In this document: positions 1 to 53,900 of the stretch, one piece after another
Layout of the letters: every line of letters begins with the position of its first letter
Position numbering within the stretch: position 1 is the first letter of the stretch
Origin: Cristatella mucedo
Lineage: Eukaryota > Bryozoa > Phylactolaemata > Cristatellidae
DNA: 64,000 nucleotides
NCBI GenBank assembly: GCA_009760855.2
Contig: WPIO01000093.1
Location: 706,001 to 770,000, forward strand
Direction: 5' to 3'
The notes under the pieces: model-generated
The model's database searches: none
Seen by the model: the letters and a program-made list of their open reading frames with translations, nothing else
What the model was told of the DNA's origin: nothing
Position numbers and translations under genes: made by a program

Positions 1-1504
1 AACGAACGAAATTGTTATTGCTGTCAGCACAAAGGACGTTCACGAGAAACTTGCATCTTGTGCCCATAAGGTACCGAGAGCGTCAAACATAATGAGAATG
101 CTCTTTCTTTTAAGGACAAGGGCATAACCCCATAACAAGCATGGCGACAACATGTGGAATGGAGTTAAGACACAGGCCACTCTTAAAGTCGAAACAGATT
201 GTATATCCTTAGCAAGACAGCGAAATGTTCTGAGTTCAGGCTGAAGCTAACGACCATGCCCCAAGCTAAGATGATGAAAAACATGGCACTATTTCTGTTA
301 TGGTGATTGCTCAGTCGCATAGTAACGAGCAGCTACTAAGGGCAGTGGAGATACAGCAGGGCAATACGTAGGATAATATACCAAAATAAAGGATGCGTTG
401 ATAGAAAAGTGAAGGCAAGACAGAGTAGTACGATAAAGAAGTGGCACGAGGCAAAGAATACTGCTCTTAAGTCTACTCGCTGTACACATGCAACGCATGG
501 ATTAGGCAATAACTTGCCCAAGTGACTGCTAGGAATTGCAAGACAATAGGCGGACACGCGCACCTCCACATGCACCTCAGGTATAAGCAAATGATGATGC
601 ACTGGCTGCTTTATAAAAAACAAAAGGCAGCAGTAGTATGGCAGTAATCTACCCCTTATCTCGGTGTGTCGGGCTGAACTTGGTGCTAGTGCAGTGTGAA
701 AGCTGTTAGCCCAAGAAATAACGATGGTCAACGACAAGTACAAGATCAACGAAAATCAGCTATGCACTGCCCGACACGGTGCATCGCACGACTGCGACAA
801 AAAATAAAGAATGAACATCATCTAATGCACCAATTGACTAGAACGAGTGCAGTTTAAGTCTACGAGTTATCGGTAGCAGCTCGAGCACGAACGAAGTAGA
901 GGGTCAGCCATTGATGTCGATACCACTGTTGGACCTGCAACAAAGGCGGTTGCTGCTCTTAACACAGTAAGCCGAATTGTTAACACAAAAGAGAGTGCAG
1001 TTCACAGAGCAATAGCGTGAACCAGTGTGTGCAGTCTCATAGAGCTGCTTTCGACTGCGGTACATTGGCACAATATTTTAAAAATCGCGACGACGAGAAA
1101 GACTTACGTCCACCAGAACCATTTAGAGATTGCACAGGCAAGGCAAAGGCCTGGTGAGTGATTATTAGCATACAACTGACTGAGACACAATAGCAGCAGA
1201 CAAAGAAAAAGCCTCGTCTCTAAGTGATGACCACGCGAGTGCAACAACGACGCATGATAGGCTTGCATCGTCAGAATATTCGTGATAAACAAGTCTGTAT
1301 GCAGGTACACAGCAACAGCGTGAATCGGCATCTCACACAGCATGCAGTCCACGAAGCCTTCTCAGAGTGCACACTAGAAGAGCATCAGTAGATGAGCAGA
1401 ACTTGATAAAGACAAACAAAATGGTAGCACCCATGCAGAAGATCACGAGGCAGCAACTCAAATTTTTCTGTACTAATATACTAAGAAATAATATATACTA
1501 AGAA
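1..1504. other. no gene or repeat recognised
   Basis: Mixed-composition sequence downstream of TMEM245. Open frames here (longest 137 codons, minus strand, 336-749) are hydrophobic, lack recognisable motifs and are not supported by splice or codon evidence. TACTAAGAAATAAT is repeated in tandem around 1478-1510, where the LINE-A tail begins. Confidence 0.4.
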
Positions 1505-3118
1505 ATAATAATAATGCACTTGATAAAGCACCCTCAGATAACTTAATCTCTTTCTAGGTGCTTTACATTTGCTGCAAAGGGAAATGCGATTGAATGGTTA
1601 GTAACGCCATGCTTGATAAACAACATGAATAACATGGTTAGGGGTCCAAGATTATAGAAAATAAAGCTCCAGGATGTTCCATGACGCATACAGCAACGTG
1701 TATCCCATCGAAATAAGTAATTTTACCCAATTCGGTTAAAACAAGCAGAGTCAAACTCGGATTTCAAAATTCACTCCAATACGTGAAGTATTGGCCCAGT
1801 TATAGATTTTACAAGGCACAGATCTACACTTGAAATGAGACAGTTTAAAAGTCACAAGAATGTACCTCAACAAGCTTCACAAATGTACCTCAATCTGCCA
1901 AGTTCGACAAGTTGGGCTACAAGTCGCATATGACACAGAGATCGGTAAATTTGTTATTTGTAGATATGTTGCTTCGGTTTAAATCCTGGTTCCACGAGGT
2001 TTGCACATTCATTTTTGCTTTCATGTGGAAGTGTACCCGAGTGCTTCCTATCCCATTTCAAACATATTTGTCTTTTGAAAGGTACCCTCAATAAATATAT
2101 GATTATCAAACGAATTTTATAAATATTTTCTTGACATTCCCCCATAAGCATACATAAAATGAGTCTCGCGGACCCACTAAATGCTGTGATAAATAGATGC
2201 GTTTTTAGCTTCTTTTTAAATGCCGTCTTGTCAGAGGATGTGGTAACACCAGTCCGAAGTAAGTTTCAGGCTTTGGGAGCATACGAACTACAGGCACGGT
2301 CTCCAAAGGATTTGAGGTTCGTACCAGGTATAAGTAGCCGATTGGATACGAAAAGCAGGTGGTACACTGCGCCACCTGGTGGGGAGTAGGTCTGACAGAT
2401 AGGCTGGTGCTAAAGAATGAAGGGATCTAAATGTTAGTTACAGAACCTTGAAGTTGATTCACTGCTTGCCTGGGAGCCAGTGCAGGTCAGCGAGAAGTTG
2501 CATGATGCGGCAACTGTGACGCTCACTACAGATAAGCTTAGCTGCAAGAGTTTTGCACCAACTGTAAGCGCCTGATAGCATAGGCCGGTAGACCAGCAAG
2601 CAGTCAGTTACAGAAATCAAGACGGGATGTCACAAACGCAAGGACCAATTTAGATGTGGTATCCCTGTCTAACCAAGCCCAAATTTTAGCAATATTAAGT
2701 AGGCAGGCTTGACTGTCGAGCTGGTGTGGACGCCTAATGAAATGTCACTTTGGAACAGAACACATAGATTTTGAGCAGATTCAACAAGAGATATACTGGC
2801 TGAGCCGATTTTGAGCGTTAGATTTTCCAATTATTGAATCACACTTGACTTGCTCACAACTAGAAAGTTAGTTTCATTATCATTAAATTTAAGAAAATTT
2901 GCTGTCATTCATGTGTGGATGTCATTAGTACATGCAGCAAGGAAGTTGAGAAAATTCGACGTGCTGAAGGGCTGGGAGGGATCAAAGCAAAGGTACAGCT
3001 GAGTGTCCTCTGCATAAAAGTGAAAGCCTAGATTGTACTTGGCAATCGCATCAGCAAGAGGGAGAGTATAAACTGTGAATAGAACCGGACTTAGCATTGA
3101 GCCCTGAGGTACATATAT
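1505..3118 (-). mobile_element. LINE-A fragment with a ~500-bp interruption
   Basis: Minus-strand LINE-A. (ATT)n and the 3' hairpin tail lie at 1505-1646, then foreign DNA to about 2140, then the C-terminal region and part of the RT to about 3118, where the copy is 5'-truncated. The RT block contains [20 protein letters not shown] but the catalytic YADD has become YAED. It is a pseudogene copy. Confidence 0.85.
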
Positions 3119-3424
3119 TTCAGTGGTTCCTCATGATCCAGGATGCCATTTGACCATTATAATCTTTTACTTAGCTGCTGAAAATGCCAACAAACCCATT
3201 ACTCTGAAGTGGATACATTTGCCCCATTCTCAATATTCATGCATAGATTTGGAGAAACTGCACAAATTCTACCATCTTGAAGATGCAGCTTTCATCCGTG
3301 GGCATGTGCGGACATATTGACTACATATTTCAGTGTTTACAAAGAAGAATGATAATAGCAAAAGAAATCTAATGACTGACTCACTTGATTATCTAAATGA
3401 AGTTGTAAGCACATTGTCACTAGG

Positions 3425-3570
3425 TCTTAGCCGATCGGTAAGGTGCTTGGACTATCACAAGCCAAGGGCATGAGTTCAAATCATTCAGCAGGCAAAACTG
3501 TATTGCCCACAGCAAATTGCTTGCAAGCAGCCACGGCTCAGGTGCTGCTACATAAATGAGGCTAAGGATC
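3425..3570 (+). mobile_element. SINE-A-like copy (old)
   Basis: Reads like the SINE-A head (TTAGCCGATCGGTAAGGTGC), then a degenerate B box (GAGTTCAAATC), then the body ending AGGTGCTGCTACATAAATGAG, matching the ends of better copies. Diverged; limits approximate. Confidence 0.5.
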
Positions 3571-5053
3571 AGCTGACGTTTATTTTTTGTATGGCCAGAA
3601 CGAAACTAAAGGAAAAAGGAAATAGCATCACTATAAAGGCCTTTCAGTCACTCAAACAAAACTTGAATGTGACCGGCTGCACAATAAGAATGCTAAGAGT
3701 GACCATGGGAAACAGTCAATACCTTGCCGACAAAGCATGAAAATAAGCATAAACAGCCTTCTACCAGATCCTAAATAGCCGAACCCGAATATTGAGATCA
3801 CAAAGCCAAGAAGATGCTGACAACAGATAAATTGATGCAGTAGATGACAGCAAGGCAGGTAATCCCTACCCCGTGCCTTGCGTGGCACTGGTTAGAGTAT
3901 CCGAAACGGGGAGCACGCATGTCTGATTTGTTGAGACGACGGTTGTACTTAAGGTTGAAATAAAAAAAGCGGACTTGTGTTTTTCCTTTCACCACGATTG
4001 CACACAAAACTTCAGCACATCAGTTTATATAGTAACCAGGGCCAGTATTTCGCAGGCCAGGGATGAACATTAAGCAGATGAAAGGTGCAGGTGCCCCTAG
4101 TTACCATCGCATCGAACTATTGCATCGACTGGACAACGCAAGGATTCACATTCTCTTTCATCATGCACGTGCTGAGGTAGTAAACTGTAAACAGGTAGAG
4201 GTAGTTAACATTTCGGCTCATTTAGGAAAGCGAATCATCCTAAATGCACGTCTCGTACATAAAATCGTTAGCATTTCATGGTGTGGGATCGAGCTGCCCC
4301 GGACAAAAACCCATCGAATGAGGGGGAGAGGTGGCACTAAGCAAACAGAAAGCAGTGAGAAATAAGGCAGATCAAGCAAGCGCTAGGCAGCCAGACACTG
4401 CAGCTACGTCAAACGAGTGTTTACAATTTGCATCCGACTCGGCTAGGTATTCGATCACAGGTTGTATGGCAAAGTGGTAAAAAAGGAAGCAAACGTGAAA
4501 GCCAGAGTTTTTGCATTCGGATGAAGACAGGCAGGTCAGTGGAACCTGTTTAGACTAAGAAGGCGTGGCTGCTTCGTGCTGACTTTGCCAGTGCCAAGAG
4601 CTATCTCACTAGACAATAAAGCACGTTAGAAAGTTGGCTGCAGGCTGATCTGCTACCTGAGAACAGAACTAGTTAAACACTTCTAGGAGCACAGCCGACA
4701 GCAGAAAAGAAACTGCTATGAATGACTGGTGCTGACGCTAAACTAAGAAGTAGATTCGTCTATCAGCTTTACACTAAACTGAGCAGACAGTGTCCATTTA
4801 AAGGTAGCTTTTACTCAGACAATGTTTGTTTATGTAAAAATAGCTTCAGCAAGTCAACTAGAGCCCGTGGTTCAAGCTACCTTATATAAAAATATAATTA
4901 ATTTATATAGCACCCCAAGAGAACTTAATCTCTATTCAGGCGCTTCACATATGCCTCGGGACCTTAACAGTTGAACCCAACCACTGCAGGCCAGGGGATT
5001 CCAGTGCTACTGAGAGCAGCAAGGTTCATCTCTCAGTGTGGAAAGGCTTGGAC
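3571..5053. other. downstream flank of TMEM245
   Basis: No gene recognised. A variant LINE/SINE tail in minus orientation lies at about 4885-4955 (AGAGAACTTAATCTC core). If exon 16 of TMEM245 is internal, a further exon would have to lie here; none was seen. Confidence 0.35.
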
Positions 5054-35459
<30,406 letters not shown>

Positions 35460-38952: not shown

Positions 38953-39889
38953 CTATAAAAACTTTAGTCCGGTGAATTTAGAAATAATCCAAGACTTGAA
39001 CAAAATTTTTTGTCAATGCGTTTGACGGGTCACATTTTCTCCGTAGCAGAAACTTAATTTGGCCGCAGTTATCAAGCGCTAAATGGCGCTCTTGGCCTAG
39101 CAAGCATCAATTTAAAGTGCTTATCGGTAGCGACGGTGTGGGCATAGATACTGGGTTCAGTCGCTATTTTCGCACTTAAACGTTCAGACGCTGCAGCAGT
39201 TGAACTTCTCCGTTTGTGTAATAGTAGAAATTCTCTCGGAGCAACCTAAGAAGGACTTACAATCACCGAGCAGTCTCTCAGTTTCGCTTTCGTGCCTCGA
39301 TCGAATGGAGCAGCTTCTTACTTCTGGCTTAGCGAGAATTTTGGCACATCGCTATAGCTCTACGTTTAGGGACGTGGCACGATATCAACGCCTGCTCTAT
39401 AAAATGCTCTCGAAAAGACTTGGTCTCCTCTGTGAAAAAAAGTTGCCTTTTAACGTTCTGGGCGAGCCTGAAGCTCTGAGCGAACGGCTCACCGCCCGAA
39501 AGCTTCTTTAGAACCGATACCCACATAAGAAAAGAAATTGTTTACCCGTCAGGAAAGCCAGAAGTTTTTTTCAGAAAGGTTCGAATGGCCTCTTTAGACC
39601 TGTTTAGAACGAATAAGGTCTCTCAAAAATCTAAAAAAAAAGAAAAAGATCAACCCCTCTCATACGTCCTCCCGGGAAAATTACCCCGAATGTTTACGAC
39701 GGAAGTCTGTCCGACGTGGCGGCCTTTGTAGCCCTGTATGACATATCCCGAGCTAACGCCCTGAGCAGAATCACCTTGAAGTTGCCTGCCGAAGGAGCTA
39801 CCAAGCAAGCCTTCAAAATGCCTCTAAGCCTGGTAGTCCCTCCCTGAAACCCTTTAGCGACTCGTAAACGGCAACCGCATAGCAAAACG
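38953..39889. other. intergenic, unassigned
   Basis: No repeat recognised. A 103-codon plus-strand frame at 39200-39511 has no recognisable motif and no supporting splice sites; not called as a gene. Confidence 0.35.
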
Positions 39890-39892
39890 CAT

Positions 39893-41270
39893 AGCAGAGT
39901 TAGGAGAGCAGTTGAGGTAGTGAGTAGCATAGAAGTAGCAGCTCAAGACCGCTGAAAAAGATGTGCCATAGTCAGCAGTTGGAGAGTAGATGTCGTTGCG
40001 TAAGAATTGTGGAGGCGAGTTCCCCAGTCTAGGACCTGCAGAGCTAAAGCTTCTGTCGCCAACTGTCTTTAAGCGGAGGAATGGGACAGCTAATTTATTG
40101 TCCACACAGGACCTGAGGGCGCGAACAGGCTGAAACTGATGCAGCAGTTCAGTTAGGTACGAAGGAGCCAAGCCGTGGCGGGCCTTGTGGGTCAGCGTAA
40201 GAACTTTGCTCTGTATCCTTTGCTCAACCGGCCACCATTCTAGCTCTTTCAGCAAAGGAGACACGTGCTCAAACCGCTGGGACTTGAAGACCAGCCTTGC
40301 AGCCATATTAATAGTCCGCTGTAGTGGCATAATAGCTTTCTTTGGTAGCCCAGCCAAAAGGGAATTACAATAATCAAGCCGAGACAGAACTAAAGAGCTA
40401 GTTAAATTTTTTACAAGCCACTTTGGGAGACAGCTTCTAATCTCGGATAGGGATCGGATGTGATGGCTAGCTGTAGAGGCAGTCTTCTGAATGAAACTTT
40501 TGAAATTGAGGCAGCTGTCAAACACGACGCCTAGATTACGAGCACGAGGTGAAGGTCGCACAATAGCATCACCTATTAGAACAGCAAAGCCTTTTAATTC
40601 AGCTACACGCTTAGGGTGTCCTATGAGAAGCAGTTCGGTTTTATCGTCATTTAATTTCAGGAAGTTTTCCGACATCCAGGATCGAATATCGGCAAGGCAA
40701 GCATTCAGTTTCTCAGTTGCTGCAGCAGATTCCGACGGTTTAAATGACAAATACAGCTGAGTATCGTCAGCATAGAAGTGATATCCTATTCCATGGGCCT
40801 TAATCACTTTTCCCAGAGGTTGCGTATAAATGGAGAACAGCAAGGGACCAAGTACAGACCCTTGAGGGACTCCACAGGTGACCCTTCTCAGGTCTGAGAC
40901 CTGACCCCCACACGACACGGATTGAACACGATCAGACAAGTATGATTTAAACCACGCCAGTGCTTCGTCTGCCAGACCAATCGTTGTTCTCAATCGTTCA
41001 AGCAGAACTTCGTGATCAATGGTGTCGAAGGCAGCTGACAGATCTAGCAAAGCTAGAGCAGTGACATTCCCGTCGTCGTTGCCACGTAGAATGTCATTGT
41101 TAACACGGAGGAGAGCAATTTCAGTGGAGTGCTGCCTCTTGAACTCTGATTGAAATGTTTCTGACATTTCATTCTTTTCAATATGTTCAACTAGCTGCTT
41201 AGCAACAATTTTTTCAAGAATCTTCGACAAGAAAATAAGAAGTGAAACTGTGTGATAGTTTGCAAGGACC
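39893..41270 (-). pseudogene. LINE-B reverse transcriptase, long open frame, both ends missing
   Basis: One uninterrupted minus-strand frame (41230-39854). RT motifs in order: [19 protein letters not shown] (A), [14 protein letters not shown] (B), [12 protein letters not shown] (C, intact), [12 protein letters not shown] (D), then the post-RT domain to [10 protein letters not shown]. Upstream sequence reads further into NYHTVSLLIFLSKIL. The endonuclease, N-terminal part and 3' UTR/tail are absent, so it cannot be an autonomous element. CR1/L2-like by motif style, from memory. Confidence 0.9.
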
Positions 41271-41589
41271 TCTGTATCTAATCCTAACCTTCCAAGTTAA
41301 CTTAATAAACCGCATCTTCATGAGCCGTCTTGATCCGTGGGCGACTGCCCGCACAAACTTAACAGAACTACTGGAATAGTTTCAGCTTCTGTGCATTTTC
41401 ACGTCCTACATGGAAGGTGACTGTGCTGTTTGTATCCTCCTTGTTTAGGCCGCTGGTAACAGAGGTTTATGCTACGTTTTTCAATCAAAACTCAGACTCT
41501 CAGACCTCAGCAGACGAGTCCGCTTCCCGCCGGCAGGTTTCGCTCTGAATTTCGAGCCCCGAGCAGAATGCCACATGCCTAACAATTGC

Positions 41590-41934: not shown

Positions 41935-42589
41935 GGATAATTTGCTAATTTGCACTTGTAGCTGTACTTAACCTGTCGCCACCAGTGAAAACATAACGTA
42001 TCTCCAGGGAACCACCGAGATTTCCGATATGGGCTACCTCGCTTAGGAACTCAAGTGAATAAAACTATTAAATACGAATCAGGTACGTAGTTGGCTGTAG
42101 CAGCCTGTGGGAGTCGCAGATTCAAGACATTTCTTCAAAAGGAGCACCTTGTTTTATTTCGGAGTTAAAGAGGCTGTTTGGGTGGCAAGCCTCGTTCACC
42201 CGCGTTTGTCAACGGTTTCCAGATTGGCTTCAATGTTATTTAAGGGGCGGTTACATTTTTACAGTTCTTGGGATTTTTGCGAGTTTCTGGAGAATAACTT
42301 TAAACAGGTTGAAAACTGCTGACAAGCGCGCCGAAGGTGCGTTTCTCAGCAGCTTTAGAGCCGCGGGTGCTCTGAGAGCCCTCGGCTCTCCAAATAGGGG
42401 TACACAATAATTTGTTTTAGCGTAGAGAAGCAGACATCCTGGTAACGCATCTTCGGCATGAGGCTAAAAGCATTCCAAAATTTCTATAAAGTTAAAGGAA
42501 TATCGAAATTGAACTGCTAAAATAAAAGTGAGAGTTTGAACAACCATAAAGTGTGAGCTAAAGAGCGTTGGATGCAGATTTTGAAAAAG

Positions 42590-43735: not shown

Positions 43736-44269
43736 TAAATTTTGTTAGACTAACAGGTCAACCAATGCAATTCTATACAGGTCAAAGCTATCAGAGGCAA
43801 GCACTATTTACAACACCGGGTGAATGTAATTCTGATTAAAAACGCTAATTCTTCCACACTCTTTGATGTATATTCATGGAAACTCGCTGCATGGGCTCTC
43901 CATTTAGTGAAAGTGCTTTTGGGTTAGAAGTCAATGCTGAAAAGACGCTTTTGTACCTTCACCCATGTGCTGCACCTTGACGATGAATATTCAATGCCGG
44001 CATTCAAATGCACGTTTATTTAGTCCTAACGCAGTAAGCGGCGAAGTTTTCCCGCTAAGCTTTTGCACTAGGACCACTCTGACTCTTGCGAGAACTACCC
44101 CTGGAGCGGGATAGACCGGCCATGTGGCATTTTCAGAGGGCCATTTCTAATCTGCCACGAGACTTCTTATTCTCCCCTTAGAATATGAGCGTGATGCATA
44201 TGGCAGCCGCTACGCTTATTTTCCGCGCTTCGTTTTGTTTGTTTTGTCCGCATACTTTGCAACTGCAAG

Positions 44270-44855
44270 TACGGCAAGGCCATGGAGTTTTTCCGACAAG
44301 CACAGTCCACGGCGCACGCGCATTCAAACTTTAGAAAAGCGCGCGCTAAGCTCAAAGTTAGGCATAATTTGATGTAAGTGAGCACACGATGCACAGCGAG
44401 TTCCTCATACTTCTTACGGAACGAAATCTTCCCTCCGGCTTACGACTGCGGCACATCCTTTTCCAGCCGTCCTGCGCTGCTGCTTCCACGCTACTCACTT
44501 TCTCGTCTGCCCTCCTGATTCATGCGTGAGATGAAGTCTGTTGGCAACCGTATACGGACTGAAAGCCGCTATATTATATTACCAGCCCGTAGTACGTCAT
44601 GAATTGCGGCTTGAGCCGGCGCGCTCACACGTGAACCTAATCCTCAACTGCCGCATATCATTGATGAATAAGCGTACGAACATGCTTCATATACGTGTGC
44701 CGGAGGCACTATAGAGAGACTTTCTGCTGAGCACAGCCAGCCTTGGCATGGTTCTGAATGTTTACAGAAGCAGTCTAGGACGACGGAGCCGACAACTGCC
44801 GCGACTTTAACAGCAGTTCCATTAGTCAAGGTTAAGAAGGTCAAACGCGTCTGGA
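44270..44855 (+). promoter_or_regulatory. 5' flank of ZCRB1
   Basis: Upstream of the ZCRB1 ATG there is a short CpG-rich patch (44305-44350, with GCGCGCGC) and then, at about 44440-44570, a LINE-B 3' fragment. No TATA box is seen near the ATG. The promoter is inferred from position only. Confidence 0.3.
44440..44570 (+). mobile_element. LINE-B 3' fragment upstream of ZCRB1
   Basis: GCGGCACATCCTTTTCCAGC through GAGATGAAGTCTGTTGGCAA to ACTGAAAGCCGC follows the LINE-B 3' region. About 285 bp before the ZCRB1 start codon, same direction. Confidence 0.65.
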
Positions 44856-44968
44856 ATGAGCGGTGGCCTTGCACCGAGTCGAAGCACCGTTTATATCTCA
44901 AATATACCTTTTTCATTGACGAATAATGATGTACACAAGATATTTGAAAAGTACGGAAAGGTAGTCAA
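44856..44968 (+). CDS. ZCRB1: ZCRB1 exon 1 (start codon)
   Basis: Residues 1-37 plus two bases. The ATG at 44856 has G at -3; the protein starts [19 protein letters not shown] and runs through [10 protein letters not shown]. It holds RNP2 of the RRM. Donor AA|GTAAGTG, phase 2. Confidence 0.95.
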
Positions 44969-47900
44969 GTAAGTGACAGCACTCGTAGTCCCCGTGGTGA
45001 CTAAAACGCAGATATTTCTGCTCGCACGTTCTTTGGCGCTAACTTCTGTGTTTAGAAACCGAGCTTGCTGTAAGGTACTGATATTTCAAATCCACACTAT
45101 CTACCGTCTGTCCAATATATATTCAGTGACCTGCAAATGACTTCTCGTTATTTTAGCTTGGTAACTGGACGACAAAAGGTCGACAGTTAGCGTTGTGCGA
45201 TATTCGCGGTGTGTGGGGGAGGGACAAATGACATTAGCTGCAGAGAGCTGCTGTCCTCGATGCCCCGGACCACAACTCTCGCCTTGCGCTTAAAACTTGA
45301 ATAGCATCACATAGAAGAAAAGTCGGTTACGAGGGAAAGCAGAGCCCCGGCTTTTTGTGCTAACCTGTGCATGATTTTCGTGCATTGACGCTTTCGAGCA
45401 TTGACTGACTCATTGTCTCTTGTGGCTCATGTGCATGGCCCTACCCACATCAAGGGTCACACACTCGACCAGATTTTCTCGTATAACTGCACTCTGTCAT
45501 CACCAATTATTACCAAATCATGCTTATCTGACCACATGCAGATCTCATTCAATCTACAGTGTGTGCCCACATCCTCCTCTACAATAACCTGTGAATCGCG
45601 AAACCTCAAGACCCTTGACATCGATGCTGTCCGTGCGAGAATATCTGCTTCACCTCTGCTGCTCAATCCTCCCTCCGATCTGTCATCATTGGTTCAACAC
45701 GACACTAGCTGACACGCTAGACGAGTTTGCACCTCTGACAAAGCGCATTGTGCGCCCCCGCCCAGACGGCCTATGGTTTACCACAGACATTAAACTAGCC
45801 AAGTCTACTAAACGAAAGCTTGAAAAGGCATACAAAAGATCCGGACTAACTGTCCATCGACAGGCATATGAAGACTACTGTAGGTCGTACCGATCGATCC
45901 TAGCAAAGGCTAAGTCTAGTTTTTATAAAAGCATTGTCGAATCACAGATGCACAATCCAAAAATGCTGATGTCGACAATAAACCATCTCCTCAACCGTTC
46001 CCAGATTAGCTCCTTACCTGATGATCCTAATGATGATCTAGCCAGTCGCTTCTCTCGATTCTTTGTGCAGAAAATAGACAAGATCAGGGAATCCATCCCT
46101 GCGATGACAACCTCCCCACTAGAATGCTGTTCCTCGGTTCCTGGCTGCACCTCAATGACTGCATTTAAGCAGGTCACTAGTGATCTAGTCCTAAAGTTCG
46201 TATCTCAATCAAAGAAGACAACAAGTCCTCTGGACCCTATTCCCACTGTCCAGCTCCTACGTTGCATTGATCTGCTGCTGCCATGCATAACTAACATAAT
46301 TAATATGTCATTAGCCTCAGGTCATGTCCCAGTACCTTTCAAAAAAGCTGTAGTCAGGCCACTTCTCAAGAAAGCTACACTTGACCAAGAGAACTTGAGC
46401 AACTACCGCCCAGTTTCCCTTCTACCATTCCTATCAAAGACACTCGAACGGGTCGTGGCGGACCAGCTAAACTCGTATATCGAAACCTCACACCTTGCTA
46501 GTAAGTTCCAGTCTGGCTTTAGAGCTAATCACTCCACAGAGTCAGCATTGCTTCGGGTATACAACGACCTACTTAGGAATGCAGACATGGGTAGAGTGTC
46601 TCTGCTTGTTTTGCTTGATCTTTCGGCAGCTTTTGATACCATCGATCACAAAGTTCTTCTAGAGCGCCTCTCATCTCGCCTGGGCATCACTGGCACTGCT
46701 CTGCAGTGGTTCAGGTCCTATCTCAGTGGGAGACTCCAGAGTATTGACGTGAATGGACAAAGATCATCTGAAGTACCTCTGAAATATGGAGTACCTCAGG
46801 GCTCAGTGCTAGGTCCGGTTCTTTTCACGGTTTATACTCTGCCTCTTGCTGATGTGATTGCAAAGCACAATCTAGGCTTTCACTTCTATGCGGATGACAC
46901 TCAGTTGTACCTTTGCTTTCATCCCTCCAGCCTTCGAGCACCTCAAATTCTCTAAACTCACTAGCTGCATGCATTGATGACATCCGCACATGGATGGCAG
47001 CAAATTTTCTAAAACTTAACGATGATAAAACTAACTTACTAGTTATGGGCAAACCCAGTGAGATCCAGAGATTGGAAAGGCTGACTCTCAAAATTGGCTC
47101 TGCCAGCATATCTCCTGTCGAATCAGCTTGGAATCTAGGTGTCATATTCCAAAGCGACCTCTCGTTAGACGACGACCATATCAGCTCCACAGTCAAATCT
47201 GCCTATTTTCAGCTTCATAAGTGCTAAAATTCGGGCTTGTTTAGATAAAGATACCACGTCCAAGTTAGTTCATGCATTCGTGACATCCCGTCTCGACTTC
47301 TGCAACTCACTGCTTACTGGCCTACCAGCATGTGCGATCAGGCGATTGCAGCTGGTGCAAAACTCTGCAGCTAGGCTTGTCTGTCGTGAGTGGCGCAGTT
47401 GCCACATTACTCCACTTCTCGCCGAACTGCACTGGCTACCAGTCAAGCAACGGATTGACTTCAAGGTTTTGTCGCTCACTTTTAGGTCTCTTCATTCTAT
47501 GGCTCCAGCCTATCTGTCAGATATACTACCCCATCAGGCCAAGCATCGTACCACCCGCTTCTCGGAATCCAACAGTCTAGAAATACCTCATACAAACTTC
47601 AAATCCTTTGGAGACCGTGCATTTAGTTCATATGCTCCCAAAGCCTGGAACTCCCTCCCGACCTGCGCCAGAACATCCACTGACCTGACTACATTTAAAA
47701 GGAACCTAAAAACACACCTATTTAGGACAGCATTTAGTGGGTCCCTGTGATTCGTCTATGATGTGCTTATGCGTGCTGACACTGTGCATGCTGCCACTAA
47801 CCACATTTGCATGCTGACCCTGTGCAGTCACCCCTAACCATATTTTTCATCTCGTTTGTTTTTCAAGCATGATTTTACTTACCATTCAATTGCATTTCAC

Positions 47901-50900
47901 TTTACAGCAAATGTAAAGCACCTAGAGAGAGATTGAGTTCTCTCAGGGCGCTTTATCAAGTGAATTATTATTATTATTATTATTATTATTCAGTATGTGT
48001 TACTGGCAGTAGAGGTCCTACTAACCGGTGGCTCTGGCTTGGTGTCGGTCGGCCAATTTCCTTTAACAACAAAACCGAACTATTACGCATTAGATATCCT
48101 AAACAATCAGCTGGACTAGAAGACTTTATGGTCTTGTAGTTGATTCTTACGCTGACCCACAAGGCCTGCCACCGGCTTCGCTCCTACCTAGCTGAACTGC
48201 TGCACCGGTTTCAGCCTGTTCGCGCCCTCAGGTCCTGTGTGGGCAATAAATTAGCTGTTCCATTCCTCGCTTAAAGACCGTTGGCGACAGAAGCTTTAGC
48301 TCTGCAGGTCCTAGACTGTGGAACTCGCTTTCACAATTAATAATAATAATAATAATAATAATGCACTTGATAAAGCGCCCTCAGAGAACTAATCTCTTTC
48401 TAGGCGCTTTACATTTGCTGCAAAGCGAAGTGCAATTGAATGGTAAGTAATATCATGTTCGATAAACAAACAACATGAATAACATGGTTAGGGGTGACAT
48501 GCACAAGGTCAGCATGCAAATGTGGTTAGTGGCAGCATGCACAGTGTCAGCACCCATAAGCCTTATGCAACGACAACTGCTCTTCTTCTGCCGACTATGG
48601 CTCATCCTTTTCAGTGGTCCTGAGCTGCTACTTCCATGCTACTCACTACCTCAACTGCTCTCCTGATTCTGCTATGCTTCCCAGTTTCTCTTCGTTGCAT
48701 GAAATGAAATCTGTTGGCTACCGAATGCGTACCGAAAGCCGCTTAGGCTGTGAGTTCGCTATACAAAACTCCTGTGTAACACTCACGTAGTCTTTATGAC
48801 TTTGTGGAGTTACAGACGGAGATACATGGATGCTGTAGTGTGAACATAATCATGTGCTCGGAATTTAGGTGTCCCCTTTGAAAACTGCATAACGTTTATA
48901 AGTTTCGTGAAGTAGACTGCCTCTACAGCTAGCCATCACTTTTATCTGTGTCTAAGAATTGGAACAGCCGACCAGGGTGGCTGGCTAGAGATTTTACCTG
49001 CTTGCTGGTTCTGTCCAGGCTGGGCTACTGTAAATCAGTTTTGGCTGGGCTACCGAAAAAAGCCTTTGCAGCTGGTAATGAATATGGCTGCAAGGTTTGT
49101 GAACAAATCTAAGAGATTCAGCTGTGACTCTCCTTTCCTGAACGAGCTGCAATGGTTTCCGACTGATCAACTTACAACAGAGGAAAATCCTTACTTGTAT
49201 GTTCGGATGGTCGCAAGGTCTTCATGGCATGGCTCCTCCATACCTAGCTACCTACCTCCATACCTAGCGGTTTGAGCACGTGTCACCTTTGCTAAAAGAG
49301 CTAGGATGGATGCCGGTTGACCAACGGATACAGAGCAAAGTTCTTACGCTGACCCACAAGGCCCGCCACGGCTTGGCTCCTCCATACCTAGCTGAACTGC
49401 TGCATCATGTTCAGCCTCCTCGTGGCCCCAAGTCCTCCATGGTCCATACATTAGCTGCTCTATTCTGTCACTTAAAGACTTTTGGGGACAGAGGCTTGTG
49501 CTCTTCAGGTCCTTGACTATGGAACGGACATCCACAATTCTGGTGCAACGACGACCTGCTGCCGACTGTAGCACATCCTTTCTAGCCATCCCGAGCTGCT
49601 ACTTCCATGCTGCTCACTTCATCGACTGAACTCTCGACTCAAGCGATGCTTCTTCTCACTTTCTTCTTGTTGCATGAGATCAAGTCTGTTGTCTATTGTT
49701 TGCAAACCGAAAGCCGTATAGGCTTTGAGTATATACAATGCACTGTAGAAAACTCCAGGTTAATAACCTTTTAGACCCTTTGGCTTTGTGGACTTACATT
49801 TACAGTTACATGAAGGAGATACATTTTCATGATATTGGTGATTTGTGGTTATAAATTGAATGGATTGACGTGTTAATTGTGCTGAAAGGCCCAATTCTCA
49901 CCAGAGCATAGTGCTTCAGTTGAGGAAAACAAGTCTGTTACAAGTTCGCAATTGGCAGCAGACTTTGGTGGTTTTCGAAAACGAGTGTCAACTTCTATTC
50001 TACGTTCCTTGATACAAATATCTCATTATTTTAGGGTGACCATCATGAAAGACAAAGAAAGGCGGCGGAGCAAAGGTGTTGCATTCGTCTTGTTTCTGGA
50101 GCGTGAGAGTGCATGGAAGGCTGTTGAAAGCCTTAACAATACAGAGGTACTCGTGAATGGCCCAAGAATTCGGGTGTACACTGCTGTGGCTTAGTCAATG
50201 GTTAACTTCAGTGCATCTTTAGATGACTTTATCGTTCTTCTACCGTACGCGATGAACCATTTTCTGCTTCTTTTATGAGCTGATGTCCTCTAGTCATTGT
50301 GTACTAGTAATTTGACATCAGATTGAATATTAAAGAGAACCAAAGAGTGTACTTCCTCAAACGATGCTGACACGAATATATGTACACTCGCGGTATTTGG
50401 TGTCGTGTATGTCGGGTCCTCGAAAATGTATGTGATCCAAAATCCGGCATAATTTTGTACTATCAGCTTTTAATTTTTTCGTATATGTTTCTAAGTTCTC
50501 TGTGCGAGTGTACATGCTCGAGAGCGTGAGTGCGAAAGAGAGTGTGTGTGTGCGTGTGCATGTGTCTGTCTGTCTGTCAGTCTATCTGTATATGTGTGCT
50601 TGCGAATATGTCCTTTCGTGTATGTGCTGCATACATTAGTGGTTAGCTGATGCCTCTTGTGATTGGGTTAGGCTGTGCTCATGGGCTGGGTAGCATCCTA
50701 GCTGAACAAATTTGTTCCTTGTCGGCTGTAGATCGGCTACGAGCGAACTATTCAAGTTTGGTGTGAGAAACTCTATTATGACACTTATTGACTGAGATGT
50801 CGCTGGTTGATGTTGCAGTTACAGGCTCTGTGCTGTTACTGTGAGCTCGTGTTTCCAAGGTTCAAGCATGACTTGGCATAAGAGGAAGTTACCAGTTTCT

Positions 50901-53900
50901 TTTCAGTGGTTAAAAATCTTTGCACGGAGGCCACTTTTGTGGCATTGAGGAAACTTGCTGCCATGTAGGCATTGTAGATTTTCTTGCTACTTTTAACTCA
51001 CGGCAGTATGCTGTGACTCTAGAGTGAAGCTTAATTAATAATAGCAATACCTGTAATAGGAAGTTAAAGTAATGCCCTAAGACAGTGGTTCTCAACCTTC
51101 CTAATGCCGTTACCCTTTAATATAGTTCCTCGTGTTATGGCGAGCCCCAACCGTACAATTATTGTGCGCAAAATGTGGAAATGCGTGTTTTCAGATGGTC
51201 TTAGGCCATGACGACCCATGTGAAAGGGTTGTTCGACTCTCATAGGGGGTCGACCCACAGGTTGACAACCGCTGCCCTAATAGAACTTGATCTCTGTCTC
51301 AACTTTTTCAACACATGCTGCCTGCAGATTATATTTAGCATTATTGTCTGAGCCATTCTTGTGCATCCATCCTCAACAAGTTTGTCTGAGGTTAGCATGT
51401 GACTGACTGGGGGCATTTGATTGATATAGAATTACCTATAAAGAGATATTAAGTTCTCTTTTGGTGCCATGCAAACGTCTTCCTAGTGTTGTTATCATTC
51501 TTAATTACTGAAGTCCAGTGGAATGGCAACTTTAACGGTTCGAATTTCCAACTGTAGATACTTGTGCTGCTTTCTGCTCTGTATTGATATTCATTAGTAC
51601 ATTCAAAGTAACTCTTAAGGTTTTTGAGGCAGTCTTATTTTGCTATAAGATTTCTTATTTTGTTATAAGATTTCTTCCATGTACTGTTTATGTGCCTGTG
51701 CCACACTAGTCTGCGGATTATGTCGAGCTTCACTAGCACTTGTTTCCGCTGGGTGGCTGGAGCAAGTAAATGAGCTAACTGTAGTTCTCTGGGAAACTTT
51801 TCAGAGCCACAAGCTGCCGATGTTTTTATCTCTGAATGTGGACACTATTCTGCTATGCAGTCGTGATCTAAAGTGTTTGGGTCACTTTTCTTCTTTGCTC
51901 GACCTCTATGCTGGTGTCGCTGACCATTCTGAGCTATACCGTGTAATTCACGGGTCTTGCTAATCCATGTCTACAAATGTAGTTATCTTATTGTTGCAGA
52001 TGTTTGGTCGTACAATCAAGTGCAACGTGGCTATGGACAACGGCCGAGCATCCGAGTTCATTCGCAGGAAGACGTACCCGGACAAGTCGCGTTGTTACGA
52101 ATGTGGGGTGTGTTTGTTGATAAGTGTATATAGGGTGCTCGCTTTTTTAATCCGTTTCTTGAGGCGGTTTGTTGGCTTGACACTCGGGCTTGCTTGCTTG
52201 TGTTGCCACACTGCATTGATCATGTCTCTTCGTGCCAGGAGTCTGGTCACCTCAGCTTCAAATGTCCACGCAATCTGCTCGGTGACAGAGAACCGCCCAA
52301 GAAGAAGAAAAAGAAGAAGAAGCGGCAGCAGGGTGACAGCTCGGAAGACGAGGACGACGACAGTGCCGACGATGGCGCCAGTGCTAGCTCAGAGCGGCGG
52401 ACCCAGCAGCAGCAGCAGCAGTCAGATAGCTTGGCCTTGGCGCTGAGTTACCAGGTGGGTGTGTGCCGGCACAGCATTGCATGCATGCAGCTTTGCTGCC
52501 AAAGCAGCAGGAGGCCGTTTATATAATGTAATTGAATGTATCTCTGTCTGTAACTCTAAAAAGCCACAAAGACTATGTAGGTGTTATGCAGTAGAGTTTT
52601 GTATAGCGCACTCACAGCCTAAGCCGCTTTCGGTACGCATTCGGTAGCCAGCAAGCTTTATCTCACTCAACAAAGAGAAAGTGGGAAGCACAGCCGAGTC
52701 AGGAGGGCAGTTGAGGTAGTTAGTAGCATGGAAGTAGCGAGTCAGGACTGCTGGAAAGGATGTGCCATAGTCAGTATCATGACAGCAGTTGTCGTTGCGT
52801 AAGAACTGTGGATGCGAGCTCCACAATTCAGGACTTGCAGAGCAAAAGCTTCTGTCGCCAACGGTCTTTAAGCGGAGAAATAGAATAGCTAATTTATTGT
52901 CCATACAGTGCCTGAGGGTACGAGGAGGCTGAAACTGGTGCAGCAGTTCAGCTAGGTAGGAAGAAGCCAAGCCGTGGCAGGCTTTGTGAGTCAGCATAAG
53001 AACTTAGCTCTGTATCTATTGATCAAGTGGCAGCCATCCAAGCTTTTTCATTAAAGGAGACACATGGTCAAACCTCTGGGATTTACAAACTAGCCTTTCA
53101 ACTATGTTCGTCGCCAGCTGCAGTGGCCTAGTGGCTTTTTTTTGGGTAGCCAGCCAGAAGGGAATAATCTAGCCGAGACAGAACCAAGGAGCTAGTTAAA
53201 TTTTGCACAAGCCACCGTATAAGACAGCTCCTAATCTTCGATAGGGATCGGATGTGATGGCTAGCTGTAGAATCAGTCTTCTTAACGAAGCTTTTATAAT
53301 TTAGGCAGTTTTCGAAGACAATAGCTAAATTCCGAGCACACGGTGATGGTCGCACAGCAGCAACACCCATTAGAAGAGCAAATCCTTCTAATCCAGCCTC
53401 ACACTTGGGGTGTCCTATGAGTAGCAGTTCTGTTATATCGTCGTTTAGTTTAAGGACATTTGCTGATATCCAGGATCGAATGTCGGCAAGGCAAGCATTC
53501 ATTTTATCAGTCGCTGCAACAGATTCCGACGGTTTAAATCGCAAATACAGCTAAGTATCACCTAGAGAGCCTCCAGCACTTGGTTGCTTGGATGTAGGGC
53601 TGGCCTTATCCAAGTATGGCATCGATCGCTGGAAGTGTCTACTCTAACACGTTGGATGTACCCTAGACCATTTCTACTGCGGGATTGCTATTGTGCAGAC
53701 CTGCGGCTAATGCATTAGATGCTTCATGTGCGTTGCTTTATATAGCTAGCTAAGGGACCGTATGTGCTGCCGTTTATGCTGCCACTGTCTATGATAGTTA
53801 TACACAATAGATTAGTTGGGGATTCAAAATGAAGCATGTCAATAGTATATATACAGTGCCGGCCCAAAACATGTTTGCACTAGCTATGGCCCCTTTACTG

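Follow-up and report, generated by a model that had tools for sequence, protein, structure and literature searches.

The copy in the ZCRB1 intron of Cristatella mucedo is an ordinary intronic member of an apparently extinct, high-copy, non-autonomous hAT family of the Buster type, probably SPIN. We assign it to the miniature non-autonomous hAT elements of the Buster group and regard it as most likely SPIN (SPACE INVADERS) or a very close sister, with a probability of about 0.7, the name itself resting on ten patterns taken to be SPIN-type. In all likelihood Cristatella is one more host of an element type already known. SPIN serves as a test case for the movement of transposons between distantly related animals, and each additional invertebrate host with datable copies helps to tell which animals carried it, and when. 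Because the copies in this host are numerous, conform to one consensus and mostly retain target-site duplications (TSDs), dating and comparison with SPIN elsewhere would be direct.

The window, a stretch of 64,000 nucleotides, had been read beforehand from its letters, and this sequence-only reading described a 192-bp element with hAT-type inverted ends, flanked by an 8-bp target duplication with one mismatch. Both descriptions were confirmed. The element spans positions 51083–51274 (no strand assigned) and lacks coding capacity. Its 5′ terminal inverted repeat (TIR), CAGTGGTTCTCAACCT (51083–51098, plus strand), agrees with the other end at 14 of 16 positions and is identical to bases 1–16 of the consensus derived from the host genome. 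The 3′ TIR (51259–51274), read on the minus strand as CAGCGGTTGTCAACCT, is one base off the consensus end, CAGCGGTTCTCAACCT. The TSDs (also without strand), CCCTAAGA on the left (51075–51082) and CCCTAATA on the right (51275–51282), agree at 7 of 8 positions, and the left copy carries the family-typical TA at positions 4–5. Compared with the 187-bp consensus, the window copy is 91.4% identical (16 substitutions in 185 aligned columns), with a further nine gap columns made up of insertions of 6 bp and 1 bp and a 2-bp deletion. The 6-bp insertion is private to the window copy and is placed by the alignment, to within 1–2 bases, at 51206–51211 (without strand).

A structural scan of the window for TIRs matching at 14 or more of 16 positions, TSDs matching at 7 or more of 8 and lengths of 60–599 yielded 19 matches: 18 in an (AT)n microsatellite at 17732–17802, and the element. 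When lengths were restricted to 100–400 and at least three G or C were required in the TIR, the element was the sole match in the window, and the same stricter scan returned no structural match in 20 first-order Markov shuffles of the window. With an E cutoff of 0.1, the consensus as query located no copy in the window besides 51083–51274, and an 18-bp match at 42304–42321 (E 0.40) was therefore rejected as a second copy. Rfam and ARAGORN gave no match on the window.

The location in a ZCRB1 intron, also proposed by the sequence-only reading, is borne out by the splice boundaries and flanking exon peptides of a GT..AG intron at 50147–51999 on the plus strand. The exon peptide beside the intron matched ZCRB1 chain 2e5h with an E value of 2.5e-13 (48/73 query residues), just behind a poly(A)-binding protein (E 2e-13), as is usual for RRMs. 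A longer ZCRB1 exon peptide matched both RRM_1 and zf-CCHC. The numbering as intron 2 in the sequence-only reading is provisional: the one motif tried for an exon upstream of the intron located none in 44000–50120.

In the host assembly (572,011,866 bases, 688 contigs), the window element as query gave 40 scored places of 2067 first-look candidates, namely its own position and 39 others. The 39 further copies are near full length, 83–85% identical to the window element and spread over many contigs. The 187-bp consensus, built from all 39 fetched copies and the window copy, has ends that are identical at 15 of 16 positions. The genome-wide count of copies and divergence, suggested earlier as a check, thus returned 39 further near-full-length copies with 92.5–96.8% identity to the consensus and a non-CpG divergence of 3.0–7.3%; the fetched copies are the best-scoring ones, so these values are biased low and understate the age of the family. 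With the consensus as query, 41 matches were scored of 2336 candidates, the best at 96% and one at 85%, and the scored copies lie about 4–15% from the consensus. Pairwise identity among the 39 copies ranges from 85 to 94% (mean 89%), in a star-like pattern without strong subfamily columns. No young copy was found among the scored copies, the nearest being about 96–97% identical to the consensus, and the family therefore looks extinct in this host.

Copy number was estimated from 200,000 bases, to which 20 contigs, chosen among those where copies had already been found, each contributed 10 kb from a preset position. This sample (GC 47%, CpG observed/expected 0.84) contained one copy, 87% identical and with flanks agreeing at 5 of 8 positions. 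Poisson extrapolation gives about 2,900 copies for the whole genome, although the error is very wide (roughly 70 to 16,000), in agreement with the candidate counts, in which candidates are unconfirmed copies. The 150-bp flanks of the 39 copies are mostly different from one another; eight flank matches of 38–128 bp between copies look like other repeats. Two copies (L013 and L028) have both flanks in common, in opposite orientation, and at G000:C676:2828045–2828503 two SPIN-like copies lie about 90 bp apart, also in opposite orientation.

The terminal C and G are retained in 35 of the 39 copies. TSDs, compared in 35 copies, agree at 8/8 positions in nine, at 7/8 in 14, at 6/8 in six and at 5/8 or fewer in six. 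As a control, left and right flanks were paired across different copies, and of these 1190 pairings 27 agreed at 7–8/8 and 95 at 6/8. Agreement at 7–8/8 is therefore found in 23/35 true pairs versus 27/1190 mismatched ones, which, with the 7/8 duplication at the window copy, is the 8-bp TSD expected of a hAT element. Position 4 is T in 64 and position 5 is A in 60 of the 70 TSD sequences, and the preferred target is close to nTCTAGAn. In the available text of PMC3499496, TcBuster is described as preferring nnnTAnnn and SPIN is placed in the Buster family; the TSDs of our 35 copies show this Buster-group preference. Short TIRs of about 15 bp belong to the definition of the hAT superfamily, as excerpted from PMC11008031, and are present here (14/16 in the window copy, 15/16 in the consensus). 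The ends, the TSDs and a 187-bp consensus too short to encode a transposase support the earlier assignment as a non-autonomous hAT element, and with 39 further similar copies the family is MITE-like.

The identification as SPIN was examined with ten patterns of presumed SPIN-type text, drawn up before the consensus was built but after the window copy was known. All ten match the host consensus exactly, with no mismatches, whereas five of the ten differ from the window copy by 1–3 bases. Three of these five differ through one shared base, the letter of which is already suggested by the other end of the element, and the informative content comes down to two strings, which span two substitutions and the 6-bp insertion of the window copy. 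Genuine but small, the test favors close kinship with the presumed SPIN text, with no power to separate SPIN from its nearest relatives. Two strings that we take to be internal to SPIN, GATGGTCTTAGGCGACC and GTTCCTCATGTTGTGG, are both exact in the host consensus. The TIR CAGTGGTTCTCAA is common to several hAT-Charlie families.

Exact SPIN-type patterns had no match in genome_contigs, and in viral_contigs the single match (L001), 20 bp long and without a second end, was taken as chance. Phages and plasmids, searched by distant blastn with the element as query and an E cutoff of 0.1, gave no match. Among SPIN-type strings sought in paper texts, six were unmatched, and for one 10-base string the matches listed look unrelated by title. 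The available parts of PMC5791352 and PMC5331948 hold nothing on SPIN beyond references.

The nature of the host was assessed from its mitochondrial contig (C688, 21,008 bp), in which COX1 is followed by nad3 (a Pfam match) in the segment 12000–17000 (L083). In COX1, conserved serine positions carry AGA/AGG, conserved methionine positions ATA and a lysine position AAA, while TGA encodes tryptophan. This reading of conserved sites corresponds to mitochondrial code 5 and points to a protostome. Code 5 excludes vertebrates, echinoderms and tunicates; lancelets have a similar code. The sequence-only reading had raised the possibility of an invertebrate host; an invertebrate host and a multi-copy family are supported by the code and the 39 further copies. 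The COX1–nad3 order is, to our knowledge, unusual, and on the same contig a segment of about 2.1 kb is duplicated in tandem, with tRNA matches recurring at a spacing of 2,115 bases.

We compared the family with known SPIN and SPIN-like elements. The non-autonomous SPIN members are likewise short and non-coding, with hAT ends and an 8-bp TSD with a central TA, and the ten presumed SPIN-type patterns fit the consensus; the differences lie in the host, Cristatella being a protostome by its mitochondrial code, and in the transposase partner, which was not found at the 21 loci examined. The painted turtle has 385 SPIN elements, according to PMC4054807. For the snail Biomphalaria glabrata, a hAT of about 1,000 copies with significant identity to SPIN is described in the accessible text of PMC5440852, which also describes the DNA transposons there as not being recent invaders and reports no intact transposase; it resembles our family in having an invertebrate host, a likeness drawn from the published description and not from sequence. 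In the triatomine Rhodnius prolixus, SPIN_NA_12_RP and SPIN_NA_13_RP likewise place SPIN in a protostome, but in the excerpts of PMC11614815 the authors report transfer from vertebrates with high identity, whereas the Cristatella copies are decayed. By these sources SPIN or SPIN-like elements had already been published from the invertebrates Biomphalaria and Rhodnius, and Cristatella would be a later addition. OC1 (OposCharlie1), as portrayed in the available portion of PMC3621081, is a horizontally spread hAT with a single burst and likewise star-like copies in the Tasmanian devil; it is another family by name and is likened here by description.

Horizontal entry of the SPIN-like family into this host is plausible, though putative. 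A further-reaching account, less likely than not, would have SPIN entering one more protostome lineage horizontally, in an event so far unreported and separate from those of the snail and the triatomine. A single burst would then have produced hundreds to thousands of copies before the transposase died out. Less probable than SPIN itself, though a real competitor, is a sister hAT family with SPIN-like ends that is not SPIN proper (OC1, hAT1, ET, URR1-like or an unnamed Buster element). Short ends are common to different hAT families, which would suit a sister family, although the presumed SPIN strings GATGGTCTTAGGCGACC and GTTCCTCATGTTGTGG are exact in the consensus and speak against it, insofar as such strings can separate the closest relatives. 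A sister family is also consistent with the coexistence of several horizontally moving hATs in one genome, as for SPIN, OC1, hAT1 and ET in Rhodnius in the text available from PMC11614815.

Old vertical inheritance, by which a resident hAT would resemble SPIN through common descent, is compatible with either family name and appears unlikely. The presence of other hAT families in the host genome is consistent with it, yet the scored copies lie only about 4–15% from a consensus for which near-identical tetrapod text is presumed; such similarity of non-coding sequence across phyla is not expected by descent and, as far as that presumption holds, counts against inheritance. Contamination, misassembly or chance resemblance is refuted, as is the single-copy artifact that the sequence-only reading had named as its own refutation, by 39 further copies on many contigs, mostly with TSDs and with different flanks, and by the empty shuffles.

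Under the favored reading as a SPIN-type Buster element, the family would probably have arrived by putative horizontal transfer, and a related hAT transposase may once have acted on the element in trans. Such an enzyme would have recognized the ends of about 16 bp together with subterminal sequence and then excised the element, with insertion presumably at nTCTAGAn-like sites and duplication of the 8-bp target. One main burst could have spread copies through the protostome genome, after which activity would have ceased and the copies decayed independently. The ZCRB1 copy would now be an inert passenger, removed by splicing with its intron.

When the host genome was searched with the PF05699 profile for a transposase partner, 150 of 766 candidates were scored and 138 of these were matches. 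At the 21 of these 138 loci that were examined, L062 and 20 weaker ones, no transposase with SPIN-like ends was found. For the 20 weaker loci the coverage was some 1.5 kb on the C-terminal side, where a SPIN-like end agreed at 11 of 15 bases at most; at least two of them, L067 and L068, have the protein of L062 and therefore contribute nothing further. L062 itself was rejected as a SPIN-like partner, its ends being different and the consensus matches there short and weak (best E 0.028, 23 bp).

Other hAT families are nevertheless represented among these loci. L062 (G000:C110:3940700–3945200, 502–3708 within it) has ends TAGGGCTGTACCGGA, a TSD ATCATAAC that agrees at 8/8 and a 640-residue open frame with zf-BED and hAT dimerization domains. 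PF05699 matches of this type are many across the genome, all with the same score (76.8 bits), and the L062 family is apparently very recent and intact, and possibly still active. Four weak hAT loci (L064, L071, L075 and L076) belong to another hAT family with a common C-terminus and an end like CAGGGGTGGGCAAAC, unlike the SPIN-like ends.

Elsewhere in the window, exons at about 5553–35522 on the minus strand presumably belong to TMEM245; two of these putative exons had no match in Pfam. Remains of non-LTR retrotransposons recur at 26234–27824, 39854–41296 and 45588–46955 and as other fragments, and both frames tested (39854–41296 and 45588–46955) matched RVT_1. Several repeats in the window run into (ATT)n.
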